Notes under the pieces: model-generated | Told to the model about the DNA's origin: nothing | The model's input: only the letters and a program-made list of their open reading frames with translations | The model's database searches: none | Assembly: GCF_026151205.1 (NCBI RefSeq) | Contig: NC_087083.1 | Coordinates: forward strand, 14,996,280-15,060,279 | Source of the DNA: Bolinopsis microptera | Taxonomy: Eukaryota; Ctenophora; Tentaculata; Lobata; Bolinopsidae | DNA: 64,000 nt | Reading direction: 5' to 3' | Program-made: the position numbers and the translations under genes | Shown here: positions 24,880 to 62,100 of the stretch, in pieces | How the letters are laid out: each line of letters starts with the position of its first letter | Position numbering within the stretch: the first letter of the stretch is position 1

Positions 24880-25290
24880 TTACTGGAAGTCCAAATCTTG
24901 AAGAAAATTTAAATTTAAAAATCATATTCAATATTGTCCCATTTGCAAATTTTGAAGATGAAATTTCCAGAACCGAAATTTTACAGTTTTTACTGAATTT
25001 CTCACCTGCAAACAATTTAATTAGTCAGTCAACTATAATTGGAATATGACACGATTGAGGTGCTGGAAGTTTTATTTCAGTTGGAAGAAGCTCACTGCAT
25101 GCAGAAAGCTTAACAAAACGAAATTAAATTTCGTATTTTCCAATTTCTGTCCCATTTTCAAATATGAAAATTTCTGAACGCAATTTTGACAGATTGGATG
25201 GAGATTTTTCCCAGAAACCAATTATTCAGTTAAAAGATGATGGTATGAAACCAAATTGAGGTACTGGAAGTAAAAATTGCGGTTCATAAG
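24880..25290. repeat. Diverged ~245-bp tandem repeat
   Basis: Two units share the phrases TTGTCCCATTTGCAAAT / CTGTCCCATTTTCAAAT, ATGAAATTTCCAGAACCG / ATGAAAATTTCTGAACGC and GATTGAGGTGCTGGAAG / AATTGAGGTACTGGAAG in the same order. Confidence 0.5.
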
Positions 25291-25629
25291 ATAAATTACA
25301 AAAAATTCAATTGATTGCAGATTCAGTATTGTCATCAAAATAAGCTATATTTTAAGAGGTAACATGAAAACCACAAAATAACAGTAAGCACTAAAATAAG
25401 TAACACTACCGGTAAGTAATGAAGTAAAACTAAAACAACTCTGTTTCACTTTCAGCTGAACAATAAAACTATAGCCAATTTCTCTGTAACCTGCAAAACT
25501 GCTTAAAATGTTTACACAGTTTAGTTAAGCCCAAGAAGTCTTCAATCTTTGACCATAAAAACACATCAACTGCGGTAATTTAAACAAATTGTTCCACAGT
25601 ATAACACCAAACGTTCCTCAGAACTCCTA

Positions 25630-28600
25630 CTACAAACACTTACATTTACTGACAATCAAATCATCAAACTTTTTAAGCACAGTCACGTGATCACCACTCA
25701 ACATTAGAGTAGCAGGCTTGTAAGTGGAAGGTACACAGCAGGGCCTCGCTACCGAGTCCGGGAATTTCTTGTACCAGGCCCCTCTGAAGAGAGCACTGGT
25801 TGAGTGGTCGATGGCATGGGACATAGGGTAGGGACACTGCCCCGCGCACTGATTTATCTTTAGCTCTAGCGGGTGGATTATCTTACTGCCCCAGCCTAGT
25901 TTAGTGAAGTTTAAATACAGATCCATGAGGACACACCTATGTTGGAAGCCCCTGCTAGCTCGCACTCCCTGGTCTCCCTCCCCGGGAGAGCGGCCTGTCT
26001 CCCCTCTTGGTTACTCCTCATGTACTCTCTAAAGGGCTTAGATGAGTTATTCACTGTGTACACCACCAGGGTTGGCTCCTTGCTCCTGGAGATGCTGAAG
26101 ATAGGGGTTCTGCCCCCGTATTTGTCCAGGTAACCATGACTGAGCTGGGTGGTGATGGAGCAGCGCACCACGAAGTGGTAGAAGTGTCGGTAGGGGGTGA
26201 GGTTATTTAGGGTGCGTTCTATGGAGCTTACTTTGATCTTTATCCACTGTCCAGTGTCTGACTTCTTCAGCTGAGGTACATGTGTTGGTTAGAATCGTCT
26301 TTTTGGACTTTATTTGGGCGGAAATTGCGAGAACGGATATAATTGAATTATGGACGCAACAATTTCTTTGGAAACACATGGTAAGATTCATTTTCAATCT
26401 GGACGTTTCATTCAAACTATAAGAAAACAAATTCTCAGCAAATTGTAACATTTCCATGCCTGTTTAGTATGTCTCCAAACCCTTCCTTTCACCAGTAAAA
26501 CATCTGAGCGGTCGTATATTCTCGTTTTACAGGTCGTTTTCAATGTTACGGCTGTAACGGAGCCCTCTTTTGTTAAAGGTATACTCTCACTTATATCGCC
26601 CACAAATACTCTCAGATTTGAAGCTGAAATGTGTGAGTGTTTAATCAACTGGAGTTTCACTTTTTCGATAGGATTCTTAGCTAGCACGTCGATACGACGA
26701 AAATTGTGGTTTAATCTTAATCTCTTCGCAATCTCTTTAGCATCATCAATAATAATTGCATTCATCTTAAATCCCTTCTCGTGATCTTCTAACCAACTGC
26801 AATTATAAGTTTTGTACTATATATTCCTTATTTTTAATTCTCTCACCTAAGATTCTATCCTCTCTGTTAAAAGCTGATATATTAAAATCCAATTTCGCTT
26901 TTTGTGGTAAATAGAAACCTTCCAATTCTGTCACACCTGAAGATGTAAAGTGTTTTTAGTATATAAATATAAGTTCTTTTCAGTAATTGAATAGATTTTT
27001 TTACTAAGTGAATAGTGTTTTTTAGAAATCAAATAAGTTTTCTCTACTAATTCAATGTGTGTTATTGTAGAAGTCAGATACATTTTCTTTTAAATAATCA
27101 AACTTGCATTATTTACTAATCAAATAAGTGTTATTTTTTGTTTCAGTAAGTAAATGAATTTCCCCGAGTAACTATGGTCCTTGTTCAGGTAATTACATGA
27201 ACTACAATAGAAGTCTCCAATGGTTCCCACAACCAATAAACCGCACCTAACCTTATAAGGCTTCTTAATTAAAATCTGCTGAGAGTTCAGTTTTAAGGCT
27301 TCTCCAGCAATAGGAGCTGCATCCCTCTGTAACCATGGTTACCATGGTTATTGTAACCATGGTTATTGTAACCATGGTTATTCATATTGTAACCATGGTT
27401 ATTCATATTTTCTTGAATTACTTTACACTTAAGTAATGATTTATAAACTTGCTTGACACCAACACATGAACTTTCAAATGTAACGAGTTGATTGATTTGG
27501 ATGTGGGACAGCAAATTGGTGGTATAAAATAATAAGAGTCATGCTCGACTATAAATACAAATCCTTACGCTCCCGTAGAGCGATCGATTGTTGATAAGAT
27601 ATCTCTTGGATTGCAAGGGCGAAACTTTTTAATTCGGAAATTACATCTCCATTGCCCTGGTTATTGTGCTTACCATGGTTAACGATGCATTATTTCAGTA
27701 ACATACAATATTCATGTGCTTCACATATATGTCGCTACCATAGCCTTATCATGTATCAACCCTGCTTATAACCATAATGTTTATAATAACCACAATAAGT
27801 TTCATGTGTCGAACACTGGTCAAGTCTCGAAATAATTTTAGACGGCAACATTTAGGTCAATAAGATAGTAGATACGGGCTCTGTATTTATCCTCCATACT
27901 GTTTTACTTAGTTACTATAAGTTATGCATCCCAATTAACTTTTTTACACGCGTGTTTATTACATATGATTCTGTACACGTGACGGATGTTGCGCCTTTCA
28001 TCTACCTTAATAACATCGCGATAATTCATTATATTCACAATTATAATCACTGGTCTAATTTATTGGCAATTGACAGAAATTAGTGATTTCCTCCTCACTT
28101 AAACAAATTGGACCGCACAATCAAACAATTGACAAGTTGTAGTATACACCTAACCTGTTTTACTTTTAGTATATTATAGTATACAAGTGCGAGAACATGT
28201 TTGTTATCGGCGCGGTTTTTCAATTATTTTAATCTTGGCAAGGATGGATATCCCGATCTTCAAAATACCTTTTCATACAAAATAGATACAATTCACTTTG
28301 CAGAGACTCAACGAGGTGATTGATAAAATTTTGTTTAACAAATGTTTAGTAAAATGTGAATATCTTGTTAGTGTTCTCCTCCCCATCCTCCCCCTTCTCA
28401 CCCTCCTCATCCTCCTCCCCCTCCTCCCTTCCTTAATCCTTAACCCCTACTGTACCTGATCTGTAAAATTTGAATATCTTGTTAGCGTTCTCCTCCCCCT
28501 CCTCCCCATCCTCCCCATCCTCCCCCCTCCTCCACATCCTCCCTCATCCCTTCCTTTACCCCATACTGTACCTGATCTGTAAAATTTGAATATCTTGTTA

Positions 28601-29520
28601 GCGTTCTCTTCCTCCTCCTCCCCCTCCTCACCCTCCTCCCCCTTCTCACCCTCCTCATCCTCCTCCCCCTCCTCCCTTCCTTAATCCTTAACCCCTACTG
28701 TACCTGATCTGTAAAATGTGAATATCTTGTTAGCGTTCTCTTCCTCCTCCTCCACTTCTCCGACTCCTCTGTTGAACTTGTTGTAGAGCTCTATCAGATA
28801 ATCCGGGGCTGATACCTCGTTATCACTGGGATAGTCACGTGTTATCACTAGGGTAGTCACGTGTTATCACTAGGGTAGCCACGTGTTATAACGGGATAGT
28901 CACGTGTTATCACTAGGGTAGTCACGTGTCGTCGTAATTGAATGGTGAGTTTAAAACAGGTAAAATAATGATATGAAATTTTAGTTTTAACTCTTACTTC
29001 AGAGCTTCAGCGTTACTGAGCGTTAGTTGAACCGTATAACGATTAGCGGGTTTTTTTTGGCCAACATTTACGATTTCTATCCGGTTTTCAGAAAATAGCC
29101 CCCAAATCGGCCGAACAGTTATAACTTTTTGATCAACATTTTGTTTGTTGATAGTTGAGTTTGACTAAGCTCGCTTTTGATTTGGATATAGAACAAAATG
29201 AAATTGCATCATATGTATAACGATCAGTTTGAAATGCTATATCTATCCCGAATATGCCTTGGTATAACTATTATATCAGGAGGAAGTTTCTTTCGTGAAT
29301 TCTCGTCAACCCCTTAACTACACATGTTTTTGTGGAAATCATGCATTGTCTCAAAAACTGCGAACTAGAGAGGAACTAACAATAATTCCTTGATAATCAA
29401 ACTTCTGAGCGTGAAAAAAGAAAGTAATGATTACCCTCCACAGTCGAGATGTGTGAAGCTACTGAGGAAGATAACGAAGCTGCAGAGCAAAGTCCTGCTC
29501 GATCCCTGAAGTGACGTCAT
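25630..29520 (-). CDS. TGF-beta superfamily ligand precursor
   Basis: Five exons in consistent phase: 29435-29520 (Met and hydrophobic signal LLCSFVIFLSSF), 28704-28825 (PDYLIELYNKFNRG, the usual start of a BMP-type propeptide), 26847-26936 (LDFNISAFNREDRIL), 26493-26788 (LRVFVGDISES ...) and 25630-26270 (TGQWIKIKVSS, EPTLVVYTVN, then the mature domain). The mature domain has seven cysteines in the family spacing: RCVLMDLYLNFTKLGW, CAGQCPYP, HAIDHS, PCCVPSTYKPATLML and the terminal CKCL. The propeptide and mature parts of the last exon lie in different frames. A 74-bp GT/AG intron at 25952-26025 would join them in frame; otherwise there is an indel. RETR (propeptide frame) and RASR (mature frame) are possible furin sites, but both fall inside that putative intron. 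Secreted dimeric morphogen; the subfamily (BMP, nodal or activin type) is not resolved. Confidence 0.88.
26937..28340. other. TGF-beta gene intron
   Basis: No exon seen. It contains an AT-rich part with CAAATAAGT-like repeats (about 26950-27130) and a CCATGGTTAY minisatellite (27320-27405: repeated TTGTAACCATGGTTA), which gives a false Asn-His-Gly-Tyr repeat ORF on the minus strand. Confidence 0.6.
28345..28703 (-). repeat. ~120-bp tandem repeat copying the end of TGF-beta exon 2 and its splice donor
   Basis: Copies of the exon's 3' end (on the minus strand, AACGCTAACAAGATATTC through the donor CAG|GTACAG) recur downstream in the intron, with extra donors at 28571 and 28455 and a third, donor-less copy near 28350. 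They are separated by CCTCCTCCCC tracts on the plus strand. The true exon is 28704-28825. Confidence 0.85.
28828..28935. promoter_or_regulatory. 24-bp tandem repeat with CACGTG boxes
   Basis: Five copies of a unit with TCACGTGTTATCACTAGGGT, one carrying CCACGTG. The array abuts the acceptor of TGF-beta exon 2 (exon high end 28825). Each unit has an E-box core; enhancer function is inference. Confidence 0.55.
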
Positions 29521-29558
29521 CTTCTTTCTTGTCACGTGTTAAGTGAGCTGTAATATCT

Positions 29559-29572
29559 GTTACCTTGGTAAC
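29559..29572. promoter_or_regulatory. RFX X-box-like palindrome upstream of TGF-beta ligand
   Basis: GTTACCTTGGTAAC matches the RFX X-box form GTNRCC-N-RGYAAC as a perfect inverted repeat, about 40 bp upstream of the start codon on the minus strand. A second one, GTTACCATGGTAAC, lies at 29718-29731. Binding is inferred from the motif only. Confidence 0.45.
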
Positions 29573-29731
29573 GAGCACGTGCTGTGTGTGCAGTAAGTTG
29601 TCGCGTGCTTTATCAACGTTGAATTATCTGAATTAAACTGCAACACTGGATCCTGGAATAACAAAAACTCATGTCAAACTCAACAGATGTCAAACTGATT
29701 TGATGCCCTGGAAACATGTTACCATGGTAAC

Positions 29732-32712
29732 TTGTACACGGACATAGGCAATTTCCCTCGCTATTGTGAACCAATCAGATTGCTCTATTCAGCTCAGGGA
29801 CGTGTCACGTGGTGAGCTCAAAGTAATTGAAATATAGACTCTGTAATGATTTATGTGTCCTATTTCCTTGGTAGCTAGAGTTTTATTAATGCGATGGAGA
29901 GGGGGGTTGTGATTTAAACAACACGCGTATGCAGTGCCCCACTCTGTACCTAATACAAGCTGTGATAGAGTCCAGCTGATCTTTAATCGAAAATCAGCTA
30001 CACTGTGATTAATAATTATCTGTTTTATTTGCCAACATCTGAATGGATGAGTACCGTATTACTAATACTACTTAAATTTAATTATTGAAACGTTGTGTAC
30101 TGACGGAGTGATTGTAACTGCAGTTAAAACAGGAAATTGGAAAAAAATGCAGAAAACTGAAAAAAAAACTGAAAAAAAATGCTGAAAAGTGGTGAAAAAT
30201 GGGATTATGTCAAAGGTTTACCTTCGATTTTGATCCAACTGTTCGATTTGAAATTTAAACTAACAAAGCTACATTTTTGTAACCCTAACCAAATTTATAT
30301 AAATGGAAAAAAACCCTAACATAACATGTAACATAACATTAACATGTTACAGCTTTACAGTATCTAAAAATGTCCACTACTTAACAAACTGAACCGATCT
30401 AAATCAATTTTGAAGGGTTGGAATTATATCAGTTATTGCAGTCACATGCTACAAAATTAATGTGAAACCTATCTAAATAGATAATTGACAATTAGTATTA
30501 CACGTTTTAAATTATAAGGTGACGTACACATTACAATTCTAGGCAACAAAAACATAATTAGAAACCAATATGTTATTTATATATTTATAAAATAAAATCT
30601 AAACCCTAACTTCATAAAAACGAACCTCTCCATTTTCCAGATGTTACGAATGAAGAAAATGAATGAAGAAAGAAGGCGTTAAAACGACCAGGGAATTCAG
30701 AAAGTAAAGCCTGCGACTGGTCTAGTACAGTATATGAAACTTAAAACTAGCCTACAAGCAATAGTATGCAGTAAGCCCTCGTCTGTCAATATACTAACTC
30801 ACTAATATACGATAACAAACTGATAGGATGAAAGGAATACTTCTCATACAACACCCGTGATGTCACGTAGCTAATCAGCACTCCGGCTCTAATAAACCTA
30901 ACACGTGACACGCACGTGGTAACACGCTGTAACACGTGGGCGCGCTCTCTTATCACGTGACCGCGAGGTTTAGTGGTTCGGTTAATTAACGATACGTTTT
31001 AATGTCCTGTAGACGAGCTCTTGTGGTTCATCGGGCGACTTGGGTTTATAATGTTTTAATTACAGCCAACTAAAGTAATTGGGAGTACTGCTACAGTTTG
31101 CTAATATAAGAATATAGCAGTAATTATTAATTAATGTGCTACCATAAACATAAACTTTTTATGACTGAGGTCTCGAGTAACAGTGCTACAGTAGCCAGTA
31201 CGTAACTCTAACAATAAAATCATCATGGCACACGTTAGTCGTTACCATAGGAACACGTTACCATAGCAAAATGTTGCCATATTTGATAGCAATAAGATAC
31301 CGCAACATTAACATGTTTGCATAGCAAAACGTTACGTAGCAAAACGTTACCGTAACTGTGCGTTACCGTAGCATCATGCTACAAAAATTGTTGTTGCAGT
31401 GATGCGTATAAGTGAAATTCAAAATGTTAAAGTTTCTAAAAACTTACTTGTAATCAATATAATATGTTACTTTCAAGCAAATCTTCACGACCAATTAAAA
31501 TCGATATTTGATTTTTACTTTCTAACGTCCAAGAAATTAAAAAACAATTAGAAGAAAAAATGTGTCAGGGCATGGAAACTTAACTATTGATAAAAATTAA
31601 AAATGTAAGATCTGGAAATAACAAGGAGATCAGGGAAATCACGGAAATCAGCATGTTAATATCCTGATTGGGAGTATTTGTTCTGTCGAGGGCGTGTTCT
31701 TATAAGTGTCCTCATTGTATAGCGACTCATTGTTATCTGTATAGCCACACACCAACCATTACTTATTGTATTCTTTGTAGTATTGTTTAAGTAACGAAAA
31801 TTATATCGTAAGCCCGCGACGAGCTGATGACTTGATAGGTTGTCAGTGTTGTATAAAGTTAGTAGAATCTTGTAAGTTGTAACACTGAAATATTAAAAAA
31901 TCGCAGCGGTTAGCGCGTCATTTTGAGAGTCAAGCATATTCGGAGGGTATGTCAGAAACTGCAGGAGGGTCAGCTTGGACAATAGAGCGCGGTGGAAATT
32001 AGTTCATAGGATAAAATCCAAGATACAGACTACTATAATAGTTCAATGTTAAAACGTTGCAGTCAGCAGTTGTTAACTGTAGAAAGTTGTGGGAGAATTC
32101 AATAAAATTTCATATTTCACAAACATTGTACAAAACTTTATGTTTTACTGTTACAACCATTATTTTAGAAAAAAAAGTAATTTGGGGATGATCATCCATT
32201 AAAACCTAACAAAATTGTGCCAAATCAATTATAAATCTCACTATACTGTGCTGACTTTAATAAAGCAGTAAAATTTAAAACTGCTAATAAATCTCGGGGT
32301 TTTGTAACCCTCGGCCAAGTAAATCTCCTTAATCAGTTTATTTAATAAACTGTTTTTTAATAAACTGTTCACAAACACATAAATGTGTGATGAAATAGAA
32401 TCGTAAGTATTCCGATAAATTTTCATCACATCATCATTAACAGTTCCAGGCCTTATAGCCCTCGTATAAAAACGAATCCTTGTGTTTGAACTGCGTTACA
32501 GATACATGACGTCAGTTTCCCCTCATTCTTTTAGTTTTAAAGTGAGCAGCAATTCGAGCTAAAAGTAGGGGGTTGTCGTCTCTTAACCAGCCAGAGGAGA
32601 GAGTGAGGGAAGTAACCAGGACCCATGCTGACCTAGGGGAACGTTATATTTATACACTTTCACTGTCACTGTTACTTTCACTTTCACTTTCACTTTCATC
32701 TTCACTTTCATA

Positions 32713-43100: not shown

Positions 43101-46100
43101 CGTTGTTATGGTAACGCGTTTTTATGGTAACGTGTTGTTATGGTAACGTGTTGTTATGGTAACGTGTTGTTATGATAACGTGTTGTTATGGTAACGTGTT
43201 GTTATGGTAACGTGTTGTTATGGTAACGTGTTGTTTTGGTAACGTGTTGTTATGGTAACGTGTTGTTATGGTAACGTGTTGTTATGGTAACGTGTTGTTA
43301 TAGTAACGTGTTATTAGGGTAACGTTTTGTTATAGTAACGTGTTATTAGGGTAACGTTTTGTTATAGTAACGTGTTGTTATGGAACGTGCTGTTATGGTA
43401 ACGTGTTGTTATGGTAACGTGTTGTTATGGTAACGCGTTGTTATGGTAACGTGTTGTTTTGGTAACGTGTTGTTATGGTAACGTGTTGTTATGGTAACGT
43501 GTTGTTATGGTAACGTGCTGTTATGGTAACGTGTTGTTGTAGTAACATGTAGTTATGGAACGTGCTGTTATGGTAACGTGTTGTTATGGTAACCTGGTGA
43601 AATACTTTGTAAGTTATTAATAAAGGATAAAGTAGAGACCCTAGTAAGCACAAATAACATCTCAGATCTAGTTAACTCTTTTTGCGAGAGAACACCTAGA
43701 AAAATAGAACCCCCACCCCCCTTTCCCCCCCCCTCCCCCCNNNNNNNNNNNNNNNNNNNNNNNNNNNNNNNNNNNNNNNNNNNNNNNNNNNNNNNNNNNN
43801 NNNNNNNNNNNNNNNNNNNNNNNNNNNNNNNNNNNNNNNNCAACTTCACGTTGTGTCCCCCCCGTTACTTTGGGCCCGGTTTAAAAAACTAGCAATTTTA
43901 TTGGGGGGGGGGGGGGGTAATTGGGGGGGTTGGGGTTTCCCCCGTTCAGGGGGTCCCAAAGCTTTGGGGGGGGGGGGAGGGGGGGGGGGGGTCCAACTTC
44001 ACGTTGTGATCCACCCCGTCTACATCTGGCCGGTAACAACTTAGCAATTGGGGGGGGGGGGGGGGTCCAACTTCACGTTGTGTTCCACCCCGTCTACATC
44101 TGGCCGGTAAAACTTAGCAATATTGGGGGGGGGGGGGGGGGGGGGGGGGTCCAACTTCACGTTGTGTTCCACCCCGTCTACATCTGGCCGGTAACAACTT
44201 AGCAATATTGGGGGGGGGGGGGGGGGGGTCCAACTTCACGTTGTGTTCCACCCCGTCTACATCTGGCCGGTAACAACTTAGCAATATTGGGGGGGGGGGG
44301 GTCCAACTTCACGTTGTGTTCCACCCCGTCTACATCTGGCCGGTAACAACTTAGCAATATTGGGGGGGGGGGGGGGTCCAACTTCACGTTGTGCTCCACC
44401 CCCGTCTACATCTGGCCGGTAACAACTTAGCAATATTGGGGGGGGGGGGGTCCAACTTCACGTTGTGTTCCACCCCGTCTACATCTGGCCGGTAACAACT
44501 TAGCAATATTGGGGGGGGGGGGGTCCAACTTCACGTTGTGTTCCACCCCGTCTACATCTGGCCGGTAACAACTTAGCAATATTGGGGGGGGGGGGGGTCC
44601 AACTTCACGTTGTGTTCCACCCCGTCTACATCTGGCCGGTAACAACTTAGCAATATTGGGGGGGGGGGGGGTCCAACTTCACGTTGTGTTCCACCCCGTC
44701 TACATCTGGCCGGTAACAACTTAGCAATATTGGGGGGGGGGGGGGGTCCAACTTCACGTTGTGTTCCACCCCGTCTACATCTGGCCGGTAACAACTTAGC
44801 AATATTGGGGGGGGGGGGGGTCCAACTTCACGTTGTGTTCCACCCCGTCTACATCTGGCCGGTAACAACTTAGCAATATTGGGGGGGGGGGGGTCCAACT
44901 TCACGTTGTGTTCCACCCCGTCTACATCTGGCCGGTAACAACTTAGCAATATTGGGGGGGGGGGGGGTCCAACTTCACGTTGTGTTCCACCCCGTCTACA
45001 TCTGGCCGGTAACAACTTAGCAATATTGGGGGGGGGGGGGGTCCAACTTCACGTTGTGTTCCACCCCGTCTACATCTGGCCGGTAACAACTTAGCAATAT
45101 TGGGGGGGGGGGGGGGTCCAACTTCACGTTGTGTTCCACCCCGTCTACATCTGGCCGGTAACAACTTAGCAATATTGGGGGGGGGGGGGTCCAACTTCAC
45201 GTTGTGTTCCACCCCGTCTACATCTGGCCGGTAACAACTTAGCAATATTGGGGGGGGGGGGGGGTCCAACTTCACGTTGTGTTCCACCCCGTCTACATCT
45301 GGCCGGTAACAACTTAGCAATATTGGGGGGGGGGGGGGGTCCAACTTCACGTTGTGTTCCACCCCGTCTACATCTGGCCGGTAACAACTTAGCAATATTG
45401 GGGGGGGGGGGGGGTCCAACTTCACGTTGTGTTCCACCCCGTCTACATCTGGCCGGTAACAACTTAGCAATATTGGGGGGGGGGGGGGGTCCAACTTCAC
45501 GTTGTGTTCCACCCCGTCTACATCTGGCCGGTAACAACTTAGCAATATTGGGGGGGGGGGGGGGTCCAACTTCACGTTGTGTTCCACCCCGTCTACATCT
45601 GGCCGGTAACAACTTAGCAATATTGGGGGGGGGGGGGGGTCCAACTTCACGTTGTGTTCCACCCCGTCTACATCTGGCCGGTAACAACTTAGCAATATTG
45701 GGGGGGGGGGGGGGGGTCCAACTTCACGTTGTGTTCCACCCCGTCTACATCTGGCCGGTAACAACTTAGCAATATTGGGGGGGGGGGGGGTCCAACTTCA
45801 CGTTGTGTTCCACCCCGTCTACATCTGGCCGGTAACAACTTAGCAATATTGGGGGGGGGGGGGTCCAACTTCACGTTGTGTTCCACCCCGTCTACATCTG
45901 GCCGGTAACAACTTAGCAATATTGGGGGGGGGGGGGGGGTCCAACTTCACGTTGTGTTCCACCCCGTCTACATCTGGCCGGTAACAACTTAGCAATATTG
46001 GGGGGGGGGGGGTCCAACTTCACGTTGTGTTCCACCCCGTCTACATCTGGCCGGTAACAACTTAGCAATATTGGGGGGGGGGGGGTCCAACTTCACGTTG

Positions 46101-48436
46101 TGTTCCACCCCGTCTACATCTGGCCGGTAACAACTTAGCAATATTGGGGGGGGGGGGGGTCCAACTTCACGTTGTGTTCCACCCCGTCTACATCTGGCCG
46201 GTAACAACTTAGCAATATTGGGGGGGGGGGGGGTCCAACTTCACGTTGTGTTCCACCCCGTCTACATCTGGCCGGTAACAACTTAGCAATATTGGGGGGG
46301 GGGGGGTCCAACTTCACGTTGTGTTCCACCCCGTCTACATCTGGCCGGTAACAACTTAGCAATATTGGGGGGGGGGGGGGGTCCAACTTCACGTTGTGTT
46401 CCACCCCGTCTACATCTGGCCGGTAACAACTTAGCAATATTGGGGGGGGGGGGGGGTCCAACTTCACGTTGTGTTCCACCCCGTCTACATCTGGCCGGTA
46501 ACAACTTAGCAATATTGGGGGGGGGGGGGGGTCCAACTTCACGTTGTGTTCCACCCCGTCTACATCTGGCCGGTAACAACTTAGCAATATTGGGGGGGGG
46601 GGGGGTCCAACTTCACGTTGTGTTCCACCCCGTCTACATCTGGCCGGTAACAACTTAGCAATATTGGGGGGGGGGGGGGGTCCAACTTCACGTTGTGTTC
46701 CACCCCGTCTACATCTGGCCGGTAACAACTTAGCAATATTGGGGGGGGGGGGGGGTCCAACTTCACGTTGTGTTCCACCCCGTCTACATCTGGCCGGTAA
46801 CAACTTAGCAATATTGGGGGGGGGGGGGGTCCAACTTCACGTTGTGTTCCACCCCGTCTACATCTGGCCGGTAACAACTTAGCAATATTGGGGGGGGGGG
46901 GGGTCCAACTTCACGTTGTGTTCCACCCCGTCTACATCTGGCCGGTAACAACTTAGCAATATTGGGGGGGGGGGGGTCCAACTTCACGTTGTGTTCCACC
47001 CCGTCTACATCTGGCCGGTAACAACTTAGCAATATTGGGGGGGGGGGGGGGGTCCAACTTCACGTTGTGTTCCACCCCGTCTACATCTGGCCGGTAACAA
47101 CTTAGCAATATTGGGGGGGGGGGGGGTCCAACTTCACGTTGTGTTCCACCCCGTCTACATCTGGCCGGTAACAACTTAGCAATATTGGGGGGGGGGGGGG
47201 GTCCAACTTCACGTTGTGTTCCACCCCGTCTACATCTGGCCGGTAACAACTTAGCAATATTGGGGGGGGGGGGGGTCCAACTTCACGTTGTGTTCCACCC
47301 CGTCTACATCTGGCCGGTAACAACTTAGCAATATTGGGGGGGGGGGGGTCCAACTTCACGTTGTGTTCCACCCCGTCTACATCTGGCCGGTAACAACTTA
47401 GCAATATTGGGGGGGGGGGGGGTCCAACTTCACGTTGTGTTCCACCCCGTCTACATCTGGCCGGTAACAACTTAGCAATATTGGGGGGGCCCCGTCTACA
47501 TCTGGCCGGTAACAACTTAGCAATATTGGGGGGGGGGGGGTCCAACTTCACGTTGTGTTCCACCCCGTCTACATCTGGCCGGTAACAACTTAGCAATATT
47601 GGGGGGGGGGGGGGGGGTCCAACTTCACGTTGTGTTCACCCCCGTCTACATCTGGCCGGTAACAACTTAGCAATATTGGGGGGGGGGGGGGTCCAACTTC
47701 ACGTTGTGTTCCACCCCGTCTACATCTGGCCGGTAACAACTTAGCAATATTGGGGGGGGGGGGGGTCCAACTTCACGTTGTGTTCCACCCCGTCTACATC
47801 TGGCGGTAATAACTTAGCAATATTGGGGGGGGGGGGGGGGTCCAACTTCACGTTGTGTTCCACCCCGTCTACATCTGGCCGGTAATAACTTAGCAATATT
47901 GGGGGGGGGGGGTCCAACTTCACGTTGTGTTCCACCCCGTCTACATCTGGCCGGTAACAACTTAGCAATATTGGGGGGGGGGGGGTCCAACTTCACGTTG
48001 TGTTCCACCCCGTCTACATCTGGCCGGTAACAACTTAGCAATATTGGGGGGGGGGGGGTCCAACTTCACGTTGTGTTCCACCCCGTCTACATCTGGCCGG
48101 TAACAACTTAGCAATATTGGGGGGGGGGGGGGTCCAACTTCACGTTGTGTTCCACCCCGTCTACATCTGGCCGGTAACAACTTAGCAATATTGCCAGTAA
48201 TTAGTTAAAACATAATCAAATTTAAACAAGATTCACTAGGCTATAGGAGAAGTTGGGTACATTTCCTCACAAAATAGAGAACCATCGAAGGAGCATTGCA
48301 TGTAATGATAGCTGTAATGGATTACCTATGTACTCCACTGTGGAGCAGAACACGTAATCTTTGAGGGGCTGTCCAGGAGTTGTTCCGTCAGTTTCCACTA
48401 CACTACTCGGATCTGCAGTGTTGAACAGTCTTCTTC
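37157..48436 (-). CDS. START-like lipid-transfer domain protein (partial)
   Basis: Five minus-strand exons join in phase: 48326-48436 ([11 protein letters not shown]), 43640-43695 ([17 protein letters not shown]), 42226-42343 ([19 protein letters not shown] and the following helix), 37420-37529 and 37157-37351 (ends [14 protein letters not shown], stop). The [10 protein letters not shown] strand-turn plus a closing helix, preceded by an alternating strand, fits the C-terminal half of a START domain, which binds a lipid in a helix-capped pocket. The N-terminal half of the domain was not found and may lie in the gap or upstream. The donor of the third exon is ambiguous: TTCA|GTGATT keeps the final helix, CTAG|GTAACA would cut it. 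The Ser-rich C-terminal tail is unrecognised. Its introns hold the two largest satellites in the window. Confidence 0.6.
37560..41692. repeat. 4.1-kb homopurine/homopyrimidine satellite
   Basis: The plus strand is nearly all G/A. Higher-order units of roughly 40-50 bp carry phrases such as GGGGCAAGAGGGAGGTGGGA, GGGTGAGAAAGAGGGGGAGA and GAGCAAGAGGGAGATGAGAG in shuffled order. A strand of C/T only cannot contain stop codons, so very long Pro/Leu/Ser ORFs (up to about 1460 codons) arise without selection. It lies in the START-like gene intron between 37529 and 42226. Confidence 0.97.
41928..41985. repeat. Short array of CGTTACCATAACAACA
   Basis: Three to four copies of a 16-bp unit that is the reverse complement of the unit in the array at 42946-43600, so the two arrays face opposite ways. 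Confidence 0.9.
42946..43600. repeat. 16-bp minisatellite GGTAACGTGTTGTTAT
   Basis: About 40 copies with GTG/GCG variants. Each unit has a GGTAAC half X-box. It lies in the START-like gene intron between the exons at 42343 and 43640. The stretch 42344-42945 shows no supported exon. Confidence 0.96.
43741..43840. other. Assembly gap (100 N)
   Basis: A run of exactly 100 N between a C-rich sequence and the start of the 74-bp satellite. The size is likely a placeholder; satellite copies or an exon may be missing. Confidence 0.99.
43841..48192. repeat. 4.2-kb satellite of ~74-bp units with poly-G runs
   Basis: Roughly 57 copies of a unit: a run of 10 to 26 G, then TCCAACTTCACGTTGTGTTC, CACCCCGTCTACATCTGGCC and GGTAACAACTTAGCAATATT. 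Units are almost identical apart from G-run length; the first few beside the gap are degraded. The runs shift the frame from unit to unit and create chimeric ORFs on both strands with no meaning. It lies in the START-like gene intron between the exons at 43695 and 48326. Confidence 0.98.
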
Positions 48437-50171: not shown

Positions 50172-53100
50172 ATGAAGAAGATAACTAATCTCGTAAGGAA
50201 CGGGATGGTATCTGCATATATATTTCTCCTTTTGGCCCATGTTACATTGCAAAATGTTCAAACTGAAGGTGAGATTAATAAAACTCGATATGGGGTTCCC
50301 GGTCAAGTGGTTTTATCTTACTATATATAAAGCAAGACGATATAATATATGGATGGATGGATGTGTTTATCCGTACCATTTTACTGACACCACGGCATCA
50401 ACTTTAACGCGACTTTACGCAAAAAACCGTAAAAGATATACAACTGAAACTTTTTTGACTGGGTCAAAGGCTTTAATGGCCTCCAAATCAGCATAAATGA
50501 ATAAGAAATAGGGGTTTTAGAGCCCAAAATTTGGACCCCCAAGTAGTGTCAAAAACGCGAATTAAATAAGGAATAATTTATTTAGTCTCTTGAGTCTTGA
50601 CACCATTTTGGGGTTACCGTATACAGGTTCCTGAATTCACTTTAATGGCGTTTAACCCCCCCCCCCCCCTTCTGTTATCAGTTTCACTCAAAAGTAGTAT
50701 CTTAAAATGACGTACTAGCGTAATCATTAAGAAACCCCCTGCCTCCCCTCAGTGATTGGGTAATATGTGAAAGACCCTTTATTAAAAGTGATTTAATTGA
50801 ACAAAATTGTTGATATAACAAATCTTGGAATTTTACCATAATATTTTTTCTCATCTAACTGTCTCTTGGAAATTTAAGATTAATACGTCTTATAATGCCG
50901 TTCTCACAAATATAAATTCAAATTGACTTTGTGTAATTGATGTCCCTATGATGCTTAACCGTCGCTCTCTCAAATGTGATGACAATAAAACGAATAAATT
51001 AAATGAGAACTTAATTGAAACTGTTTTTACTCGCTCCTTATTTTGCTTTCAGTTTTTGAATATTTTTGACATTTAAGCTTTTAACGAACATTTTCGTGAC
51101 AGTCCTCACAAATTAACTATACAATGAACATCTAAAATTGATAATTATTCACAGATCAGATCTCCACTTAGCGAATTTATGTTCCTTGTGAAAACTATAA
51201 GTTGCGGTAAAAGTATTTTTTTTAGTTTAAAAAAATTTAATTTTTATACAAGCTTCCATTCACGGGATAGCCCGCTCATGATGCTTCTCCAAGCTCACAC
51301 AAGTGTCAGCAAGGAGGAAGATATTTATGCATTTCTGCACGATGATCAATGAGCCCATCAAAGCTACCAACGAAATTGTATTGTGATGATAACAATGGCG
51401 TTTCTTTTGTCGCTAATAGTAATATAAATGATGTCAGGAAATTTCTAAAAATTATTTGTGGAAATTAATTATTTTTCACAGATCTAACATTTCTAACTGT
51501 TATTTCTCTTCGGTACTTACAGAAGATTTAACAGGTTGGGCACCAGTGGAAGAGGATGGAACAACAACTGTCGTACTAAACGAAATGTTGTCAAACACAA
51601 CCCAATTTGAAATAAAAACAAAACAGCATCTTGATGCCTCTGACATGATAGCTGTTGATTTTCTGTCCAGGGATCTAGAAAAGCTTGGCAGCATGACAAT
51701 CGGACCAGCGGGTCTGAAATTTGAGATAATCTGTTCTGGAGATGGTAAAAAATTAAATGATCAATACCAAGACGGAATAATTGAAAGTGGAATCTGGTCC
51801 CTTCAGCTGAACAGTACGAGGCTGACAGTTCGATTCAATGGAGAGTATTTCTACATGTTTGACATATACGATGAGTGTGTCCCTAATGAGATAAAAGCAA
51901 TTCAGTTTAAAGAGACTACTAACGGGGCCTCTCAGTTTTACAAAGGAAACAATATCACAGGTAAACAAGCAAAACCACACTTTTTAATCTCAAAACCAAA
52001 TCTGATCACTGATTCTGTTTCAGATATGACATTCTGTGAACACGTCGTACACATGTGCTTAAAAATAAAAGGATCAATGGCCATATATAATTTATTCATC
52101 TTAAAGTATTGAAATACTCAGCATATTCTTTATTCTTTAACAATAGATCTTTTGCAGTTTTTAAAGAATGTCCAGCGGGAACTGTACCTAATGATGATTT
52201 GACAGAATGTGGTAAGTGGATACTGGATAAACCCACGATGAGATTCTTATCTGCAATATTCTTATCTTATTAATTTCTTTTCAACTCTCTTTCAATGAGA
52301 TATCTTATTTATGATTGGTACCACTCCGCAGATGAATGTGCAGCGGGAACATACAGAGACGCACGCATGTCTTCCTGTGATAGTTGTGATGAGAACTCTG
52401 TCAGTACTGCAGGAGCATCTTCTTGCACTACTTGTAATGCTGGAAGGGTAGCTAATGATGATTCGACAGAATGTGGTAAGTTGATAAACCTACGATGAGA
52501 TTCTTATCCCATTATTCTTATCTTATCTTATTAATTTCTTATCAATTCTCTTTCAAAAGAGATATTATCTTATTCATGATTGGTACCACTCCACAGATGA
52601 ATGTGCAGCAGGAACATACAGAGATGCAGACATGTCTTCCTGTGATAGTTGTGATGAGAACTCTGTCAGTACTACAGGAGCATCTTCTTGCACTGCTTGT
52701 GATGCTGGAACTGTTGCTAATGATGATTCGACAGAATGTGGTAAGTTGATAAACCCACGATGAGATTCTTATCCCCACTATTCTTATCTTATCTTATTTA
52801 TTTCTAATCAATTCTCTTTCAATAAAGATATTATCTGATTCATGATTGGTACCACTCCACAGATGAATGTGCAGCGGGAACATACAGAGAAGCAGGCATG
52901 TCTTCCTGTGATAGTTGTGATGAGAACTCTGTCAGTACTGCAGGAGCATCTTCTTGCACTGCTTGTAATGCTGGAAGGGTAGCTAATGATGATTCGACAG
53001 AATGTGGTAAGTTGATAAACCCACGATGAGATTCTTATCCCCACTATTCTTATCTTATCTTATTTATTTCTAATCAATTCTCTTTCAATAAAGATATTAT

Positions 53101-56100
53101 CTGATTCATGATTGGTACCACTCCACAGATGAATGTGCAGCGGGAACATACAGAGAAGCAGGCATGTCTTCCTGTGATAGTTGTGATGAGAACTCTGTCA
53201 GTAATGCAGGGGCATCTTCTTGCACTGCTTGTAATGCTGGAAGGGTAGCTAATGATGATTCGACAGAATGTGGTAAGTTGATAAACCCACGATGAGATTC
53301 CTATCCCCGCTATTCTTATCTTATCTTATTAATTTCTTATCAATTCTCTTTCAAAAGAGATATTATCTTATTCATGATTGGTACCACTTCACAGATGAAT
53401 GCGCAGCGGGAACATACAGAGATGCAGACATGTCTTCCTGTGATAGTTGTGATGAGAACTCTGTCAGTACTGCAGGAGCATCTTCTTGCACTGCTTGTAA
53501 TGCTGGAACTGTAACTAATGATGATTTGACAGAATGTGGTAAGAGGATAAACCCACGATGAGATTCTTCTCCCCACTATTCTTATCTTATCTTATTTATT
53601 TCTTATCAATTCTCTTTCAATAAAGATATCTTATTCATGATTGGTACCACTTCACAGATGAATGCGCAGCGGGAACATACAGAGATGCAGACATGTCTTC
53701 CTGTGATAGTTGTGATGAGAACTCTGTCAGTACTGCAGGAGCATCATTTTGCACTGCTTGTAATGCTGGAACTGTAGCTAATGATGATTCGACAAAATGT
53801 GGTAAGTTGATAAACCCACGATAAAATTCTAATCCCCACTATTCTTATCTTATCTTATTTATTTCTTATCAATTCTCTTTCAAAAACAAATTATCTTATT
53901 TATGATTGGTACCACCCACCAGATGAATGTGCAGCGGGAACATACAGAGACGCACACATGTCTTCCTGTGATAGTTGTGATGAGAACTCTGTCAGTACTG
54001 CAGGAGCATCTTCTTGCACTGCTTGTGATGCTGGAACTGTTGCTAATGATGATTTGACAGAATGTGGTAAGAGGATAAACCCACGATGAGATTCTTATCC
54101 CCACTATTCTTATCTTATCTTATTTATTTCTTATCAATTCTCTTTCAATAAAGATATCTTATTCATGATTTGTACCACTCCGCAGATGAATGTGCAGCGG
54201 GAACATACAGAGAAACAGACATGTCTTCCTGTATTAATTGTGATGAGAATACTGTCAGTAATGCAGGAGCATCTTCTTGTACTGCTTGTGATGCTGGAAC
54301 TGTAGCTAATGATGGTTCGACAGAATGTGGTAAGTTGATAAACCAACGATAAAATTCTTATCCCCACTATTCTTATCTTATTTATTTCTTATCAATTCTC
54401 TTTCAAAAAAGATATTATCTTATTCATGATTGGTACCACTCCACAGATGAATGCGCAGCGGGAACATACAGAGACGCACACATGTCTTCCTGTGATAGTT
54501 GTGATGAGAACTCTGTCAGTACTGCAGGAGCATCTTCTTGCACTGCTTGTAATGCTGGAACTTTAGCTAATGATGATTCGACAAAATGTGGTAAGTTGAT
54601 AAACCCACGATAAAATTCTAATCCCCACTATTCTTATCTTATCTTATTTATTTCTTATCAATTCTCTTTCAAAAAAAAATTATCTTATTTATGATTGGTA
54701 CCACCCAACAGATGAATGTGCAGCGGGAACATACAGAGACACACACATGTCTTCCTGTGATAGTTGTGATGAGAACTCTGTCAGTACTGCAGGAGCATCT
54801 TCTTGTACTGCTTGTAATGCTGGAACTGTAGCTAATGATGATTTGACAGAATGTGGTAAGTTGATAAACCCACGATGAGACTCTTATCCCCACTATTCTT
54901 ATCTTATCTTATTTATTTCTTATAAATTCTCTTTCAAAAAAGATATTATCTTATTCATAATTGGTACCACTCCGCAGATGAATGTGCAGCAGGAACATAC
55001 AGAGAAGCAAGCATGTCTTCCTGTGATAGTTGTGATGAGAACTCTGTCAGTACTGCAGGAGCATCTTCTTGCACTGCTTGTGATGCTGGAACTGTTGCTA
55101 ATGATGATTCGACAAAATGTTGTAAGTTGATAAACCCACGAAAAGATCATTATCAGCAATATTCACTTGCCAGGCATCCTTTCAAAAGAATGCGTGGCAA
55201 GTGAATAAATAGACTCCTCTTTGATTGCATGTAAACTATGCAGAGATAAAATTATCAGTAACAATGCAATGAAAATTTTGCAGTTTTGGGAGAATGCTCA
55301 GCGGGAACTGTAGCTAATGATGATTTGACAGAATGTGGTAAGTGGATAAACCCACGATATGATTCTTATCTGCAATATTCTTATCTTATTAATTTCTTAT
55401 CAATTATCATTCAATAAAGATATCTTATTTATGAATTGTACCACTCCGCAGATGAATGCTTAGCAGGAACATACAGAGATGCAGACATGTCTTCCTGTGA
55501 TAGTTGTGATGAGAACTCTGTCAGTACTGCAGGAGCATCTTCTTGCACTGCTTGTAATGCTGGAACTGTAGCTAATGATGATTCGACAGAATGTGGTAAG
55601 ACGATAAACCCACGATGAGATTCTTATCTCAAATATTCTTCTCTTATTTATTTCTTATCAATTCTCTATCAATAAAGATATCTTATTCATGATTTGTACC
55701 ACTCCGCAGATGAATGTGCAGCGGGAACATACAGAGAAGCAGACATGTCTTCCTGTGATAGTTGTGATGAGAACTCTGTCAGTACTGCAGGCGCATCTTC
55801 TTGCACTGCTTGTAATGCTGGAACTGTAGCTAATGATGATTCGACAAAATGTGGTAAGTTGATAACCCACGAAAAAATTCTTATCGCCACTATTCTTATC
55901 TTATCTTATTTATTTCTTATCAATTCTCTTTCAATAAAGATATCATATTCATGATTTGTACTACTCCACAGATGAATGTGCAGAGGGAACATACAGAGAA
56001 GCAGACATGTCTTCCTGTGTTAATTGTGATGAGAACTCTGTCAGTACTGCAGGAGCATCTTCTTGCACTGCTTGTAATGCTGGAACTGTAGCTAATGATG

Positions 56101-59100
56101 ATTCGACAGAATGTGGTAAGTTGATAAACCCACGATGAGATTCTTATCTCCAATATTCTCATCTTATCTTATTAATTTCTTATCAATTCTCTTTCAAAAG
56201 AGATATTATCTTATTCATGATTGGTACCACTCCACAGATGAATGTGCAGCAGGAACATACAGAGACACACACATGTCTTCCTGTGATAGTTGTGATGAGA
56301 ACTCTGTCAGTACTGCAGGAGCATCTTCTTGCACTGCTTGTAATGCTGGAACTGTAGCTAATGATGATTCGACAGAATGTGGTAAGTTGATAAACCCACG
56401 ATGAGATTCTTATCCCCACTATTCTCATCTTATCTTATTAATTTCTTATCAATTCTCTTTCAAAAGAGATATTATCTTATTCATGATTGGTACCACTCCA
56501 CAGATGAATGTGCAGCAGGAACATACAGAGACACACACATGTCTTCCTGTGATAGTTGTGATGAGAACTCTGTCAGTACTGCAGGAGCATCTTCTTGCAC
56601 TGCTTGTAATGCTGGAACTGTAGCTAACGATGATTCGACAGAATGTGGTAAGTTGATAAACCCACGAAAAGATCCAATTAAACAAATAATCAATTAAACA
56701 AATAATCAAAGTTTTAGCACATTTTACAGCATAAAATTTAAACAAATGAAAACATATAATGCTCTTAGTGGTAAATGGCCGTTTGTTCTGAGCTGTATGA
56801 TTTTTTGACAATCAACTAGCGGGGCAAGGAATGTACTGGCTGGTAGCTTTTGTACACACCAGAACGCTAGTCTGGTTGATTAGTGACCAAATTAGAGGCG
56901 TTGATAGGAAGGCATTATAATTTGTGGGTGTAAGAGGGAATATTTGGCATGCATTATTCTAGCAGCTATTTTGTAACAAATGGTCTTTACGATTATTAAG
57001 GACGGTAAGTATTTTGGGTGTTCAATACTAAATCATGGCTAAATGTCTAAGTGGGGGTTTAAATTTAAGGGAGAAAAAGAAATGAATATTGGGTTATAAT
57101 ATTAATCATAGAAGTCAACCCTGATATAACTATTGTACTAAAAATTTGATCATTATGCTTAGGGTCTTTATTAGAATTCAAATTGGATACAAAAATAGGA
57201 TCTCTTTACACTACACTTACTCACTCACACATCACATTTAACTTGACAGAGGAATACGCTGGCAGAGTAAGTCGATTTGGTCATGAAATTTTGGAGGTCA
57301 GGTGGAATCCCTGCAGGAGCCTACGAAAATTTAAGGTTACAAATATCAAAGTCTTTATTTGTCCAGTCATACACGGCATGACAATGCTGGTTGGAAAGTA
57401 GTGAAGATTTCAGTTTGGATTTCAGGCAAGAAATACTAACAGAACAATCAAAGATTTTAAGGTTAGGGGTTATTATATTCCATATTTTCGTTGACCTCGT
57501 GTTATGGTTGTCTGGGGGATCCGGTTTATTGATAATAAGCATTGGTTTCCTGGAAGAACGAGAATACTCTTCGTACATAGACATAGGAGTAGAAAACTTC
57601 ATGATCTTGAATAATTCTATGTAGCTATGGTAAGTATAAAGATTTTGTACAGTGAGTATCTCGTTGTTTTTAAACAGAGGTTTAGTGTGCTCCTTTTTAT
57701 AAAATTTACTATCAAGTTTCTGGTCAGTAAATGGTCTGGTTCGAACACACGTTTTGAATTTATCCAGGTAGGCTGCTCTATCACCAAACAGGACCCTCAG
57801 ACAGTACTTCTGTGCAGTGAATATTGAGCTTATACGATTTTTAGCTGCCCCACCCGTGCTGATATGCAGTACGACAGATGGGATTCAAAAAGAGTGTAGT
57901 ATAACTGTCTGTGGAGAAATTCTGGGAGGGAGCAGCGTAGACGACACAGAGTTGAGGTGGCATGGTTAAGCTTTCGTTTTAGGGCTATTATATGTTCTTC
58001 CCATGTTAGATTTTCGTCAATGACGACTCCTAAAAATCTAGCTGACGTTACTCTTTTGATGGGGTAGTTGTCTATATTCATTATGAATTCTTCTTCAACG
58101 TTTGCTTCAGTACGTGACTTAGGTCTAAAGTGAATGTAGCAGCATTTTGACATGTTTATGTGAAGCTTGTTAGCCCGCATGTATGTTTGAAGGTTTGAAA
58201 GTAGGGCGTTGCTGCGTTCATATGCTTCTTGTGCAGTTTTACCAACAACAAATATGTTGGTGTCATCCGCAAAGGTGACAAACGATCCCAAGCTAGAGCT
58301 ATTAGAGATATCATTTATGTAAAGTAGGAATAAAAGGGGTCCGAGAATTGACCCCTGGGGAACCCCAAATTTTATTGGAAGTAGGTCAGACTTTTCTCCT
58401 ACAACATCAGTGTACTGAAATCGATTAGTTAGGTAGCTCTTGATCAGATCGTTTGCCACGCCACGGATGCCATACCTTTCTAGTTTGGTAAGTAATGTTG
58501 AGTGATCTATAGTATCGAAAGCTTTGCTGAGGTCGATGAATATGCCTAACACATGGTGCTTCAATTTGATGTGCTTAGATATGAGGTCAACAGAGTAGTT
58601 TACTGCATGGGAGGTTGAGTGCGATTGCCTGAAACCAAACTGAGTCTTAGATATTATTCCCTGAGAGCTGACAAACGAATAAATCCTAGAATATATGATT
58701 TTCTCAAATATTTTGCCAAATATGGACAAGGTGGATATAGGACGGTAGTTTTCTATTTCTTCTGGATTACCTTTTTTGAAGACGGGTGTGATTCTGCCAG
58801 TCTTAAGTATATCAGGGAATATACCATTTGACATAAGTTTGTTTAAGTATCTGCTGATAATTGGTGCAATAACGTGGGACGAAGTTTTAATAACGGTTAT
58901 GGGAATATCACTGGCCTTTCCATTCTCGAATTCTTTGATTATTCTTAGAACCTCCTCAGGAGTGCTGTCCTCTAACATAATAGATCGAGAGTTACTAGGG
59001 CTAAGGAAGTCATGGAATGTTTTCATGGGGAGAATTGGAATACCAGAAGACAAGTCAGTTGTGATAGTTTCATTGAGCTTGGGAGCAATTGATACAAACC

Positions 59101-62100
59101 AGGAATTAAAACCATTGGCAATTGCTCTCCGGTTCAAGATTCTTTCATTATTGATGATGAAAGGTGGTTTGGTTGTTTTCTTTCTTTTGCCCCTAAGCTC
59201 ATTTATTATCTGCCAAGTTTTCTTACTGCTTTCAATGTTTTTATAGATTTCGTTACAGTAATAGGAGCGTTTGGCTGCCTTTATGATACCCTTAAGCATC
59301 CTACGATAGTCACTAAATGTCTTATAAAGAAGGACATTGCCAGATGGATCTTTATTTGTTACTGTATCTGACCATTCTTTACAAAGCTCATGTTTTCTGT
59401 CGATTGAGAGGATGATTCCATCTGTAATCCAAGGATTAAGCTTTGGTGTTCTTTTGGTCGTTTTCGGTACTTCTAATTTACAGTGCTTGTCAAGGGTGGA
59501 TTTGAAGCAATCGACAAATTCGCAAAAATCTGAAGATTGGGACAGCTGATTCACCTTCACCTCAAGGTCAGAAACAAAATTTTTAAGCTTGGCACTTGAG
59601 TAGTCGTAGTAGCGGACATGTTTTTCATTGTTCTTATTTCTTGGGGCCGGGGTTGAGGTGAAGGAGAATATGAACGTGTGTTCACTTAATCTATCCTGAA
59701 GTACACCAGAGAGCAAAACATTATCAATATCACTAACTAGGATGTTATCTATACACGAGTTTTTACAATTAGGCCGGAAGTGGGTAGCAATTGAGATGGA
59801 TGGATACAAACCATTACTAATTATAGTGTCTTCAAATAACTGGTTGTGTGACGAAACTTTGAAGAGGTCTGAGTTAAAGTCGCCAAGCAAACGAAAGGGC
59901 TTGCCGGATATCTGCTTAGCAATGGTTTGTAAAGTTTCACAAAAAGCCTCAAGGCAGCCACTAGGGGGACGGTATACAACTCCGTAGACAACCCCAACAC
60001 CAGTGCTATCAGTGATTTCAGCGAATAAGCATTCAATGTTTACAGTACAGTAGGATAACTTTTCTAGGACAACAGTGTTAAGGTTGTCTGAGACATAAAG
60101 CGCAACCCCAGTGCCCTTTTTCTTATCTGGGAGGGTATTTTGGGAGGGTATTCCCTATATGTAATATTCACTTACCAGGCATCCTTTCAAAAGAATGTGT
60201 GGCAAGTGATAATAGATTCCTCTTTGATTGCATGTAAACTATGCAGAGATACAATTATCAGTAACAATGCAATGTAAATTTTAAGTTGATAAACCCACGA
60301 TATGATTCTTTTCTGCAATATTCTTATCTTATCTTATTAATTTCTTATCAATTATCTTTCAATGAAGATATCTTATTGATGATTTGTACCACTCCGCAGA
60401 TGAATGTGCAGCGGGAACATACAGAGAAGCAGGCATGTCTTCCTGTGTTAATTGTGATGAGAACTCTGTCAGTACTGCAGGAACATCTTCTTGCACTGCT
60501 TGTAATGCTGGAACTGTAGCTAATGATGATTCGACAGAATGTGGTAAGTTGATAAACCCACGATAAGATTCTTATCCCCGATATTCTTCTCCCATTTATT
60601 TCTTCTGAAATTTTTATAGGACTGGTCCACAGTGTGAACAGATTCCAGATTTATATCTTTTTAAACTGATATTTAATAAATGATTAAAGGAACCAATTTT
60701 AAAGTTGCCATATTAAAACCTTTAGGCCCAAAAATATACCCATTATACTCACTCAAAAACAACTCTAAATCAGTAGGCTGTCACTCTGTTAATGCACCAC
60801 ACCGCTCCCTCCACTGCACTAAAAGTTATACAATAAATTCTACAATCCTTATTTTGTATCGTGATGGAGACCAGTGTCCATACAAAACATTTACTAGGTT
60901 GCCGTTTGGTGTGAACAATAGCGAACAGCACGCACACTCCTTTGCCCCGTCAACCTATATCTAATCTATTTAAAGAGTGACAACCATACTACACATTGAA
61001 TTAGGATTCCTTTGAATATCAAATTGATTTATTGTAAACTTGTTTACTCTGTAATAAATGGCATAAAATTGAAATTTTTGTTTAACTGAAATTTTTGTTT
61101 AACTGAATAAAGATGTCTTATTGATGATTGGTACCACTTCACAGATGAATGTGCAGCGGGAACATACAGAGAAGCACACATGTCTTCCTGTCTTAGTTGT
61201 GATGAGAACTCTGTCAGTACTGCAGGAGCATCTTCTTGCACTGCTTGTAATGCTGGAACTGTAGCTAATGATGATTCGACAGAATGTGGTAAGTTGATAA
61301 ACCCACGAAGATATTCTTATCCACACTATTCGTATCTTATTTATTTCTTATCAATTCTTTTTCAATAAAGATATCATATTTATGATTTATACCAATGCAA
61401 TCCGCAGATGAATGCGCAGCGGGAACATACAGAGACGCACACATGTCTTCCTGTGATAGTTGTGATGAGAACTCTGTCAGTACTGCAGGAGCATCTTCTT
61501 GCAATGCTTGTAATGCTGGAACTGTAGCTAATGATGATTCGACAGAATGTTGTAAGTTGATAAACCCACGATGAGATTCTGATCCCCACTATTCTTATCA
61601 TATTTATTTCTTATCAATTCTCTTTCAAAAAAAGATATTATCTTATTCATGATTGGTACCGCTCCACAGATGAATGCGCAGCGGGAACATACAGAGACGC
61701 ACACATGTCTTCCTGTGTTAGTTGTGATGAGAACTCTGTCAGTACTGCAGGAGCATCTTCTTGCACTGCTTGTGATGCTGGAACTGTTGCTAATGATGAT
61801 TCGACAGAATGTTGTAAGTTGATAAACCCACGAAAAGATCATTATCAATCAATATTCACTTGCCAGGCATATTTTTAAACGAATGCGTGGCAAGTGAATA
61901 TATGGGCAATTCCACGATAACGGTAACCAGTAACAAAATAATAAAGTTTGGAGGTGGTTTGGGAGAGATAGAAAATCTTGACCATATTTTCAGGGGCAAA
62001 AAACCGTTTGTTGATATCTAGCCTAGTTTAAAAACTGTAGCGCGTCAAAGTTGGCTTAAATTTAGTGTATCTTTAGTGTGAATATCCAGTTATTTTCCGA

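Follow-up and report, generated by a model that had tools for sequence, protein, structure and literature searches.

What protein is built from the run of near-identical exons close to the right-hand end of a 64,000-nucleotide stretch of the Bolinopsis microptera genome, and does the number of these exons differ between chromosomes? The whole stretch, referred to as the window, is C12:14996280-15060279 (scaffold NC_087083.1). The sequence was extended to C12:15099999, and positions past the window end are given in extended coordinates, in which the window numbering is carried on. The genome searched comprises 264.65 Mb in 232 contigs. Mitochondrial COX1 gave no match in it. One of its ionotropic glutamate receptors obtains its best PDB score with chains named ML032222a iGluR, from the ctenophore Mnemiopsis, and another with kainate receptor chains. 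The exons were found to belong to an adhesion G protein–coupled receptor (GPCR) gene of class B2, and the array of modules that they encode is part of its ectodomain. A second, inverted copy of this gene occupies C12:14.246-14.290 Mb, within 65 kb that contain no N. There are 26 full modules in the window copy and 29 in the second copy.

A symmetric exon array in an adhesion GPCR gene

A preliminary description of the window had reported 20 near-identical 144-bp phase 1-1 exons at 52332-61813. All 20 were found intact at these coordinates, each 144 bp long, with CAG directly upstream and GTAAG directly downstream, and lying in the same open frame in phase 1-1. Pairwise identity among them is 88.9-99.3% (0.7-11% apart), with a mean difference of 5.5%. 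Tandem Repeats Finder independently detected the array in three pieces with a period of 263-266, and the repeat unit of ~265 bp corresponds to one 144-bp exon plus an ~120-bp intron. The view that whole exon-intron units have been amplified is upheld. Contrary to the earlier description, the array continues past that point, as far as extended 66705 (C12:15062984); 6 further full module exons, 1 shortened module exon, and 1 more 54-bp exon lie beyond 61813. In total, the window copy contains 26 full module exons, 1 shortened module exon, three 54-bp exons, and one 771-bp exon. The run is also not uninterrupted, since a long interspersed nuclear element (LINE) with a reverse transcriptase separates exons 16 and 17. 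The claim that every exon is symmetric was confirmed for all exons placed from 51523 to the array end, which are multiples of three and, by reading, phase 1-1. The adhesion GPCR identity of the gene, the LINE, and the contig gaps were absent from the preliminary description. The features of the array and of the left end of its contig are as follows.

43741-43840, no strand: assembly gap of 100 N, left end of the gene's contig
50205-50268, plus strand: putative first exon with a signal-peptide-like start (ATG ... CTGAAG/GTGAGA, ending in phase 1), placed by eye, inside a stretch that has homology to the second copy
51523-51960, plus strand: N-terminal-domain exon, 438 bp, phase 1-1, open frame, family unassigned
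52158-52211, plus strand: short exon of 54 bp, phase 1-1, its 3′ portion similar to a module end
52332-55121, plus strand: module exons 1-11, 144 bp each, with ~120-bp introns
55284-55337, plus strand: second 54-bp exon, like the one at 52158
55452-56647, plus strand: module exons 12-16
57830-60154, minus strand: LINE reverse-transcriptase open reading frame, 774 aa (RVT_1, 1.4e-36), intronic, between module exons 16 and 17
60400-60543, plus strand: module exon 17
61145-61288, plus strand: module exon 18
61408-61813, plus strand: module exons 19-20
63500-64270 extended (window part to 64000), plus strand: 771-bp (257-codon) phase 1-1 exon with a 48-bp coding minisatellite
64490-64594 extended: shortened module exon
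65616 extended: third 54-bp exon

Each full module exon encodes 48 residues. The modules were said to be cysteine-rich, and indeed they contain six cysteines, all of which are invariant across the 20 window exons. Three joined modules match Pfam family PF07699 (Ephrin_rec_like) with an E value of 3.5e-11 and 43.2 bits (cut-off 23.1); NCD3G also barely clears its cut-off on the same three modules (39.4 versus 38.9 bits). Downstream of the array, a GPS motif (PF01825) was detected at extended ~74606 (4.2e-8, 34 bits versus a cut-off of 22.5), and the HLT cleavage motif can be read in it by eye. Exons for a seven-transmembrane (7TM) region also lie downstream, on the same strand, and six joined 7TM exon pieces match the secretin-type family 7tm_2 (PF00002) with an E value of 1.4e-33 and 116.6 bits (cut-off 20.6). 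The combination of a GPS motif with a secretin-type 7TM region identifies the gene as an adhesion GPCR. No Pfam match was obtained for the N-terminal-domain exon. All modules would presumably be joined in the spliced product.

Divergence of exons and introns

Exons and introns of the array had been described as equally conserved. To compare them, we used units with a regular intron, i.e., 20 of the 26 units in the window copy (6 were dropped) and 21 of the 29 in the second copy. Every module exon is 144 bp long, and the introns range from 114 to 122 bp. The mean pairwise difference in the window copy was 0.057 for exons and 0.0935 for introns, and the introns additionally carry ~5% gap columns. 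The corresponding values in the second copy were 0.060 and 0.091. In the window copy, 100 of 2880 exon positions and 131 of 2213 intron positions departed from the consensus (per-unit Wilcoxon P = 0.001). Once divergence was computed, equal conservation of exons and introns was thus rejected.

Across all 26 window-copy exons, the proportion of differences was 0.083 at synonymous sites (pS) and 0.051 at nonsynonymous sites (pN); pN/pS values among modules were 0.62 and 0.75. Drift at silent sites is nearly as rapid as in introns and pN is lower, and therefore the module protein is under mild constraint. The splice sites are strictly kept: the GTAAG donor and CAG acceptor are present in 26 of 26 units of the window copy and in 29 of 29 units of the second copy. 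Among 160 splice-site cells in the 20 regular units, no change was observed, while ~9 were expected from the intron rate (P = 6e-5). No in-frame stops were found in the 26 and 29 module exons of the two copies. Maintenance of the splice sites together with open frames indicates that the module exons are real.

Two copies with unequal numbers of modules

Outside the array and tandem repeats, blocks of the two copies are 88-98% identical. The N-terminal domain and the segment that follows the array occur at ≥95% identity only at these two places on C12. For the N-terminal-domain exon, identity is 95% in the second copy and 47% at one other place on C12, with no further match; 7TM exons match sequences outside the two copies at ≤76% identity. 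To estimate constraint on the receptor part, 14 single-copy exons were chosen by hand; one GAIN-like stretch (73531) and the segment immediately preceding the GPS, where the copies are distinguished by indels, were excluded. These exons contain 47 mismatches in 2453 bases and no gaps (pS 0.056, pN 0.009, pN/pS 0.16). The receptor part, as represented by the chosen exons, is therefore under purifying selection. Neither the LINE region (56701-60140; no match at E 1e-8) nor the 771-bp exon was found in 50 kb of the second copy.

Individual units were compared between the window copy (labeled R) and the second copy (labeled L). Eight of the 11 reciprocal-best pairs lie in the same order; R04-L10, R08-L18, and R15-L01 are out of order. 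In six pairs, the two units resemble each other more than either resembles any unit of the copy that it belongs to, and five of these pairs (R11-L05, R12-L06, R13-L07, R18-L15, and R26-L29) are ordered and can serve as anchors. Between anchor units, each copy has its own expansions: R03 and R04, copy-specific close neighbors, are 2.6% apart, and a two-unit repeat specific to the second copy is formed by L22, L24, and L26 in alternation with L23 and L25, with differences of 2-3%. For 14 of the 26 window-copy units and 14 of the 29 second-copy units, the most similar unit is one of the same copy.

The relationship between the copies was assessed from their surroundings. The contig that carries the window copy (43841-88538, 44.7 kb) is bounded on the right by another 100-N gap (extended 88539-88638). 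Its homology to the second copy reaches the last base on the right and begins within a tandem repeat on the left (47280 on). This G-rich repeat with a 73-75-bp period occupies 43979-48193 (>50 units) and fills most of the first 4.4 kb of the contig; the same 73-bp repeat has ~4 units beside the second copy. The long repeat is perhaps the reason for the contig break. When sequence past the gaps was compared with 14.235-14.300 Mb, no alignment was obtained, over 300 bp on the left side and 150 bp on the right side. Three stretches of the left neighboring contig were probed. Window positions 24000-30000 are 99-100% identical to C12:10.67-10.68 Mb over most of 6 kb, and positions 17000-23000 have a 3.4-kb match of 96% identity at C12:10.685-10.689 Mb. 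Taken together, these two stretches match C12:10.67-10.69 Mb at 95-100%. The right neighboring contig matches C12:11.63 Mb at 70-75% identity over most of the aligned length, with one part at 96%; at such identity, it looks like poor sequence. That three successive contigs each duplicate a different place on C12 makes the scaffold tail look like leftover haplotigs and suggests that the window copy and the 14.25-Mb copy are, with good probability, alleles of one locus.

Overall, we think it likely that the array is an adhesion GPCR ectodomain array present as alleles with 26 and 29 modules and shaped by unequal exchange. Each unit would consist of one exon for one 48-residue six-cysteine Ephrin_rec_like module and of one intron. 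Whole exon-intron units would be gained or lost by unequal exchange, one or two at once, and each event would lengthen or shorten the receptor stalk with the frame kept, because every exon is symmetric. The GPS and 7TM part would meanwhile be maintained by purifying selection, and one of the two allelic copies would have been misplaced at the scaffold end as a leftover haplotig. The length of the receptor thus probably varies between chromosomes, and this variation may affect ligand binding or mechanical reach. The earlier suggestion of an array variable in copy number is partly borne out: the second copy does have 29 modules instead of 26, in a partly different order, while allelism of the copies is only the most likely explanation. 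More tentatively, and with less than even probability, this surface receptor would be encoded by a coding variable number tandem repeat (VNTR), in which the number, order, and mix of modules, with or without the second repeat exon, would be specific to a haplotype and the ectodomain specific to an individual, as for a recognition or host-defence receptor.

Several observations weigh against the interpretation that we favor. The HRM-like exon pair (extended 67240-67553) and the GAIN-like exons downstream of the array were recognized by eye, Pfam yielding no HRM match at E ≤ 1 and no GAIN match, and the gene model near GAIN and GPS is incomplete. Adhesion GPCRs have a GAIN domain N-terminal to the GPS, and an HRM domain is optional in them. 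Order is broken by R08-L18 among the six strict unit pairs and by three of the 11 reciprocal-best pairs, and the closest units show weak spatial clustering (P = 0.22 and 0.07 by permutation). Mean differences between copies (0.060 for exons and 0.095 for introns) equal those within copies; copy-specific homogenization is therefore not seen, and gene conversion may contribute. Window positions 2800-8800, the third stretch probed in the left neighbor, are a mobile element, and none of the ~40 matches listed for it lies near C12:10.69-10.71 Mb. The synonymous difference of 5.6% between the copies exceeds the divergence of the left neighbor from its partner (99-100% identity over most of 6 kb) and would be compatible with paralogy or with a locus of unusually high divergence. 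True paralogs, lying ~0.8 Mb apart as an inverted segmental duplication with an array of its own in each copy, could also account for the receptor exons being open and gap-free in both copies. Moreover, a shorter second module gene follows both copies, so a two-gene unit would have duplicated. A real duplication, however, should show unique flank joined to the copy, whereas gaps flank the contig with the window copy on either side, the homology extends over this contig as far as its right end, and both neighboring contigs are likewise redundant copies of other places on C12. We therefore regard paralogy as rather doubtful.

The number of units could, in turn, be an artefact of long-read assembly, which may stutter or collapse in a tandem array. 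The scaffold tail does hold poor sequence, as seen from the right neighbor, and a few near-identical neighboring units could be miscounted. Yet, the units are distinguishable from each other, given the differences among the 20 window exons, all 26 module exons are free of stops and exactly 144 bp long, and collinear anchor units are found again in the N-free stretch of the other copy, which makes an artefact improbable. A different possibility is that the array serves mainly for combinatorial alternative splicing, with a variable number of modules per transcript produced from one allele. GTAAG and CAG are kept at every module exon with no sign of weakened sites, which are typical of many cassette exons, and splicing as the main function of the array therefore seems unlikely to us, even though the symmetry of all exons placed from 51523 to the array end would allow it and vertebrate adhesion GPCRs often vary their N-terminal modules in this way (PMC6667449).

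Related systems and neighboring repeats

For a few human genes, it is well known that entire extracellular modules vary in copy number. One unit of LPA encodes one disulfide-rich kringle, and apolipoprotein(a) is secreted. The kringle IV type 2 unit of LPA, a coding unit with exons and introns, is ~5.6 kb long and is reported in 1-40 units across alleles (PMC11462820, PMC6314250, and PMC4378929). The ctenophore array is similar in that a coding exon-intron unit is repeated and the number of units is unequal between (here, probable) alleles; it differs in having an ~265-bp single-exon unit in a membrane receptor in place of a ~5.6-kb unit in a secreted protein. Alleles of DMBT1 are reported to encode 8 to 13 highly homologous cysteine-rich SRCR modules, whose number alters bacterial binding (PMC5435793). 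Here, too, the number of cysteine-rich modules differs between probable alleles, but the modules are Ephrin_rec_like and belong to a receptor, while DMBT1 is a secreted mucosal protein with SRCR modules, and the domains listed for it in that source include neither GPS nor 7TM. Of the traits that mark coding VNTRs such as those of LPA and DMBT1, our locus has the tandem array of near-identical symmetric exon units within a single open frame; as for unit number between alleles, 26 and 29 units were found in copies that are probably, though not certainly, alleles.

Among adhesion GPCRs, EGF-TM7 receptors carry few EGF modules. Ectodomain EGF modules of EMR2/ADGRE2 and CD97/ADGRE5 are described as variable in number (PMC6667449). 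The receptor studied here is likewise an adhesion GPCR with a variable number of ectodomain modules; in EGF-TM7 receptors, however, modules are varied by splicing, whereas here there are at least 26 near-identical modules and the variation is between gene copies. Sponges, also early-branching animals, are reported to have adhesion GPCRs with repeated cysteine-rich SRCR modules (PMC4302439). The likeness extends to repeated cysteine-rich modules in an adhesion GPCR but not to module type, the words "ephrin" and "GCC2" being absent from the main text of that paper. Choanoflagellate GPCRs with Ephrin_rec-like domains in the ectodomain are described as well (PMC12716839); they share this ectodomain type with our receptor but belong to the glutamate family. 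Among the search listings, which covered open-access PMC text, none showed an adhesion GPCR with a module VNTR. Should the two copies be alleles, a single animal would have two versions of the receptor, distinguished by several modules and one whole exon, and one could test directly whether such a receptor is tuned by the length of its ectodomain. The probable redundancy of the scaffold end also calls for caution when genes or duplications are counted there.

The 771-bp exon encodes 16-residue Ephrin_rec_like units, and its 167-residue window part matches PF07699 with an E value of 2.3e-16. Similar minisatellite exons are present at 74-95% identity on C2, C3, C5, C7, C9, C10, and C11. At the two matching places compared, homology ends at the exon (C3, 63510-64220) or just past it (C7, 63448-64293). 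The exon was accordingly rejected as part of a mobile element, the homology being confined to it or nearly so; it looks like an exon common to several genes rather than a transposon.

A similar array of smaller scale had been proposed at 17404-22698. We looked for it and did not find it. This region contains copies ~730 bp apart and a 28-bp minisatellite, with no Pfam match above cut-off. Among the matches listed for 17000-23000, there are 130 matching pieces with 74-97% identity at ~20 other places on twelve scaffolds, a distribution with which 17404-22698 looks like a dispersed repeat. A 5.7-kb stretch at 2800-8800 is 96-100% identical, in parts or as a whole, to ~40 places in the genome and is, judging by these matches, a recently active mobile element, class unassigned.

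The second gene with the same modules starts downstream of the receptor gene in both copies, at extended 87272-88460 and at C12:14.247-14.250 Mb. It yields 5 exon matches in the window copy, where the contig end cuts it, and 9 in the other; one of its module exons in the 14.25-Mb copy seems out of frame as placed. Last, a 40-bp tandem repeat at extended 75186-76026 has, by eye, ~20 copies here and ~3 in the second copy of the receptor gene. It seems, also by eye, to have grown out of the splice donor of the first transmembrane exon and the adjoining 3′ end of that exon.

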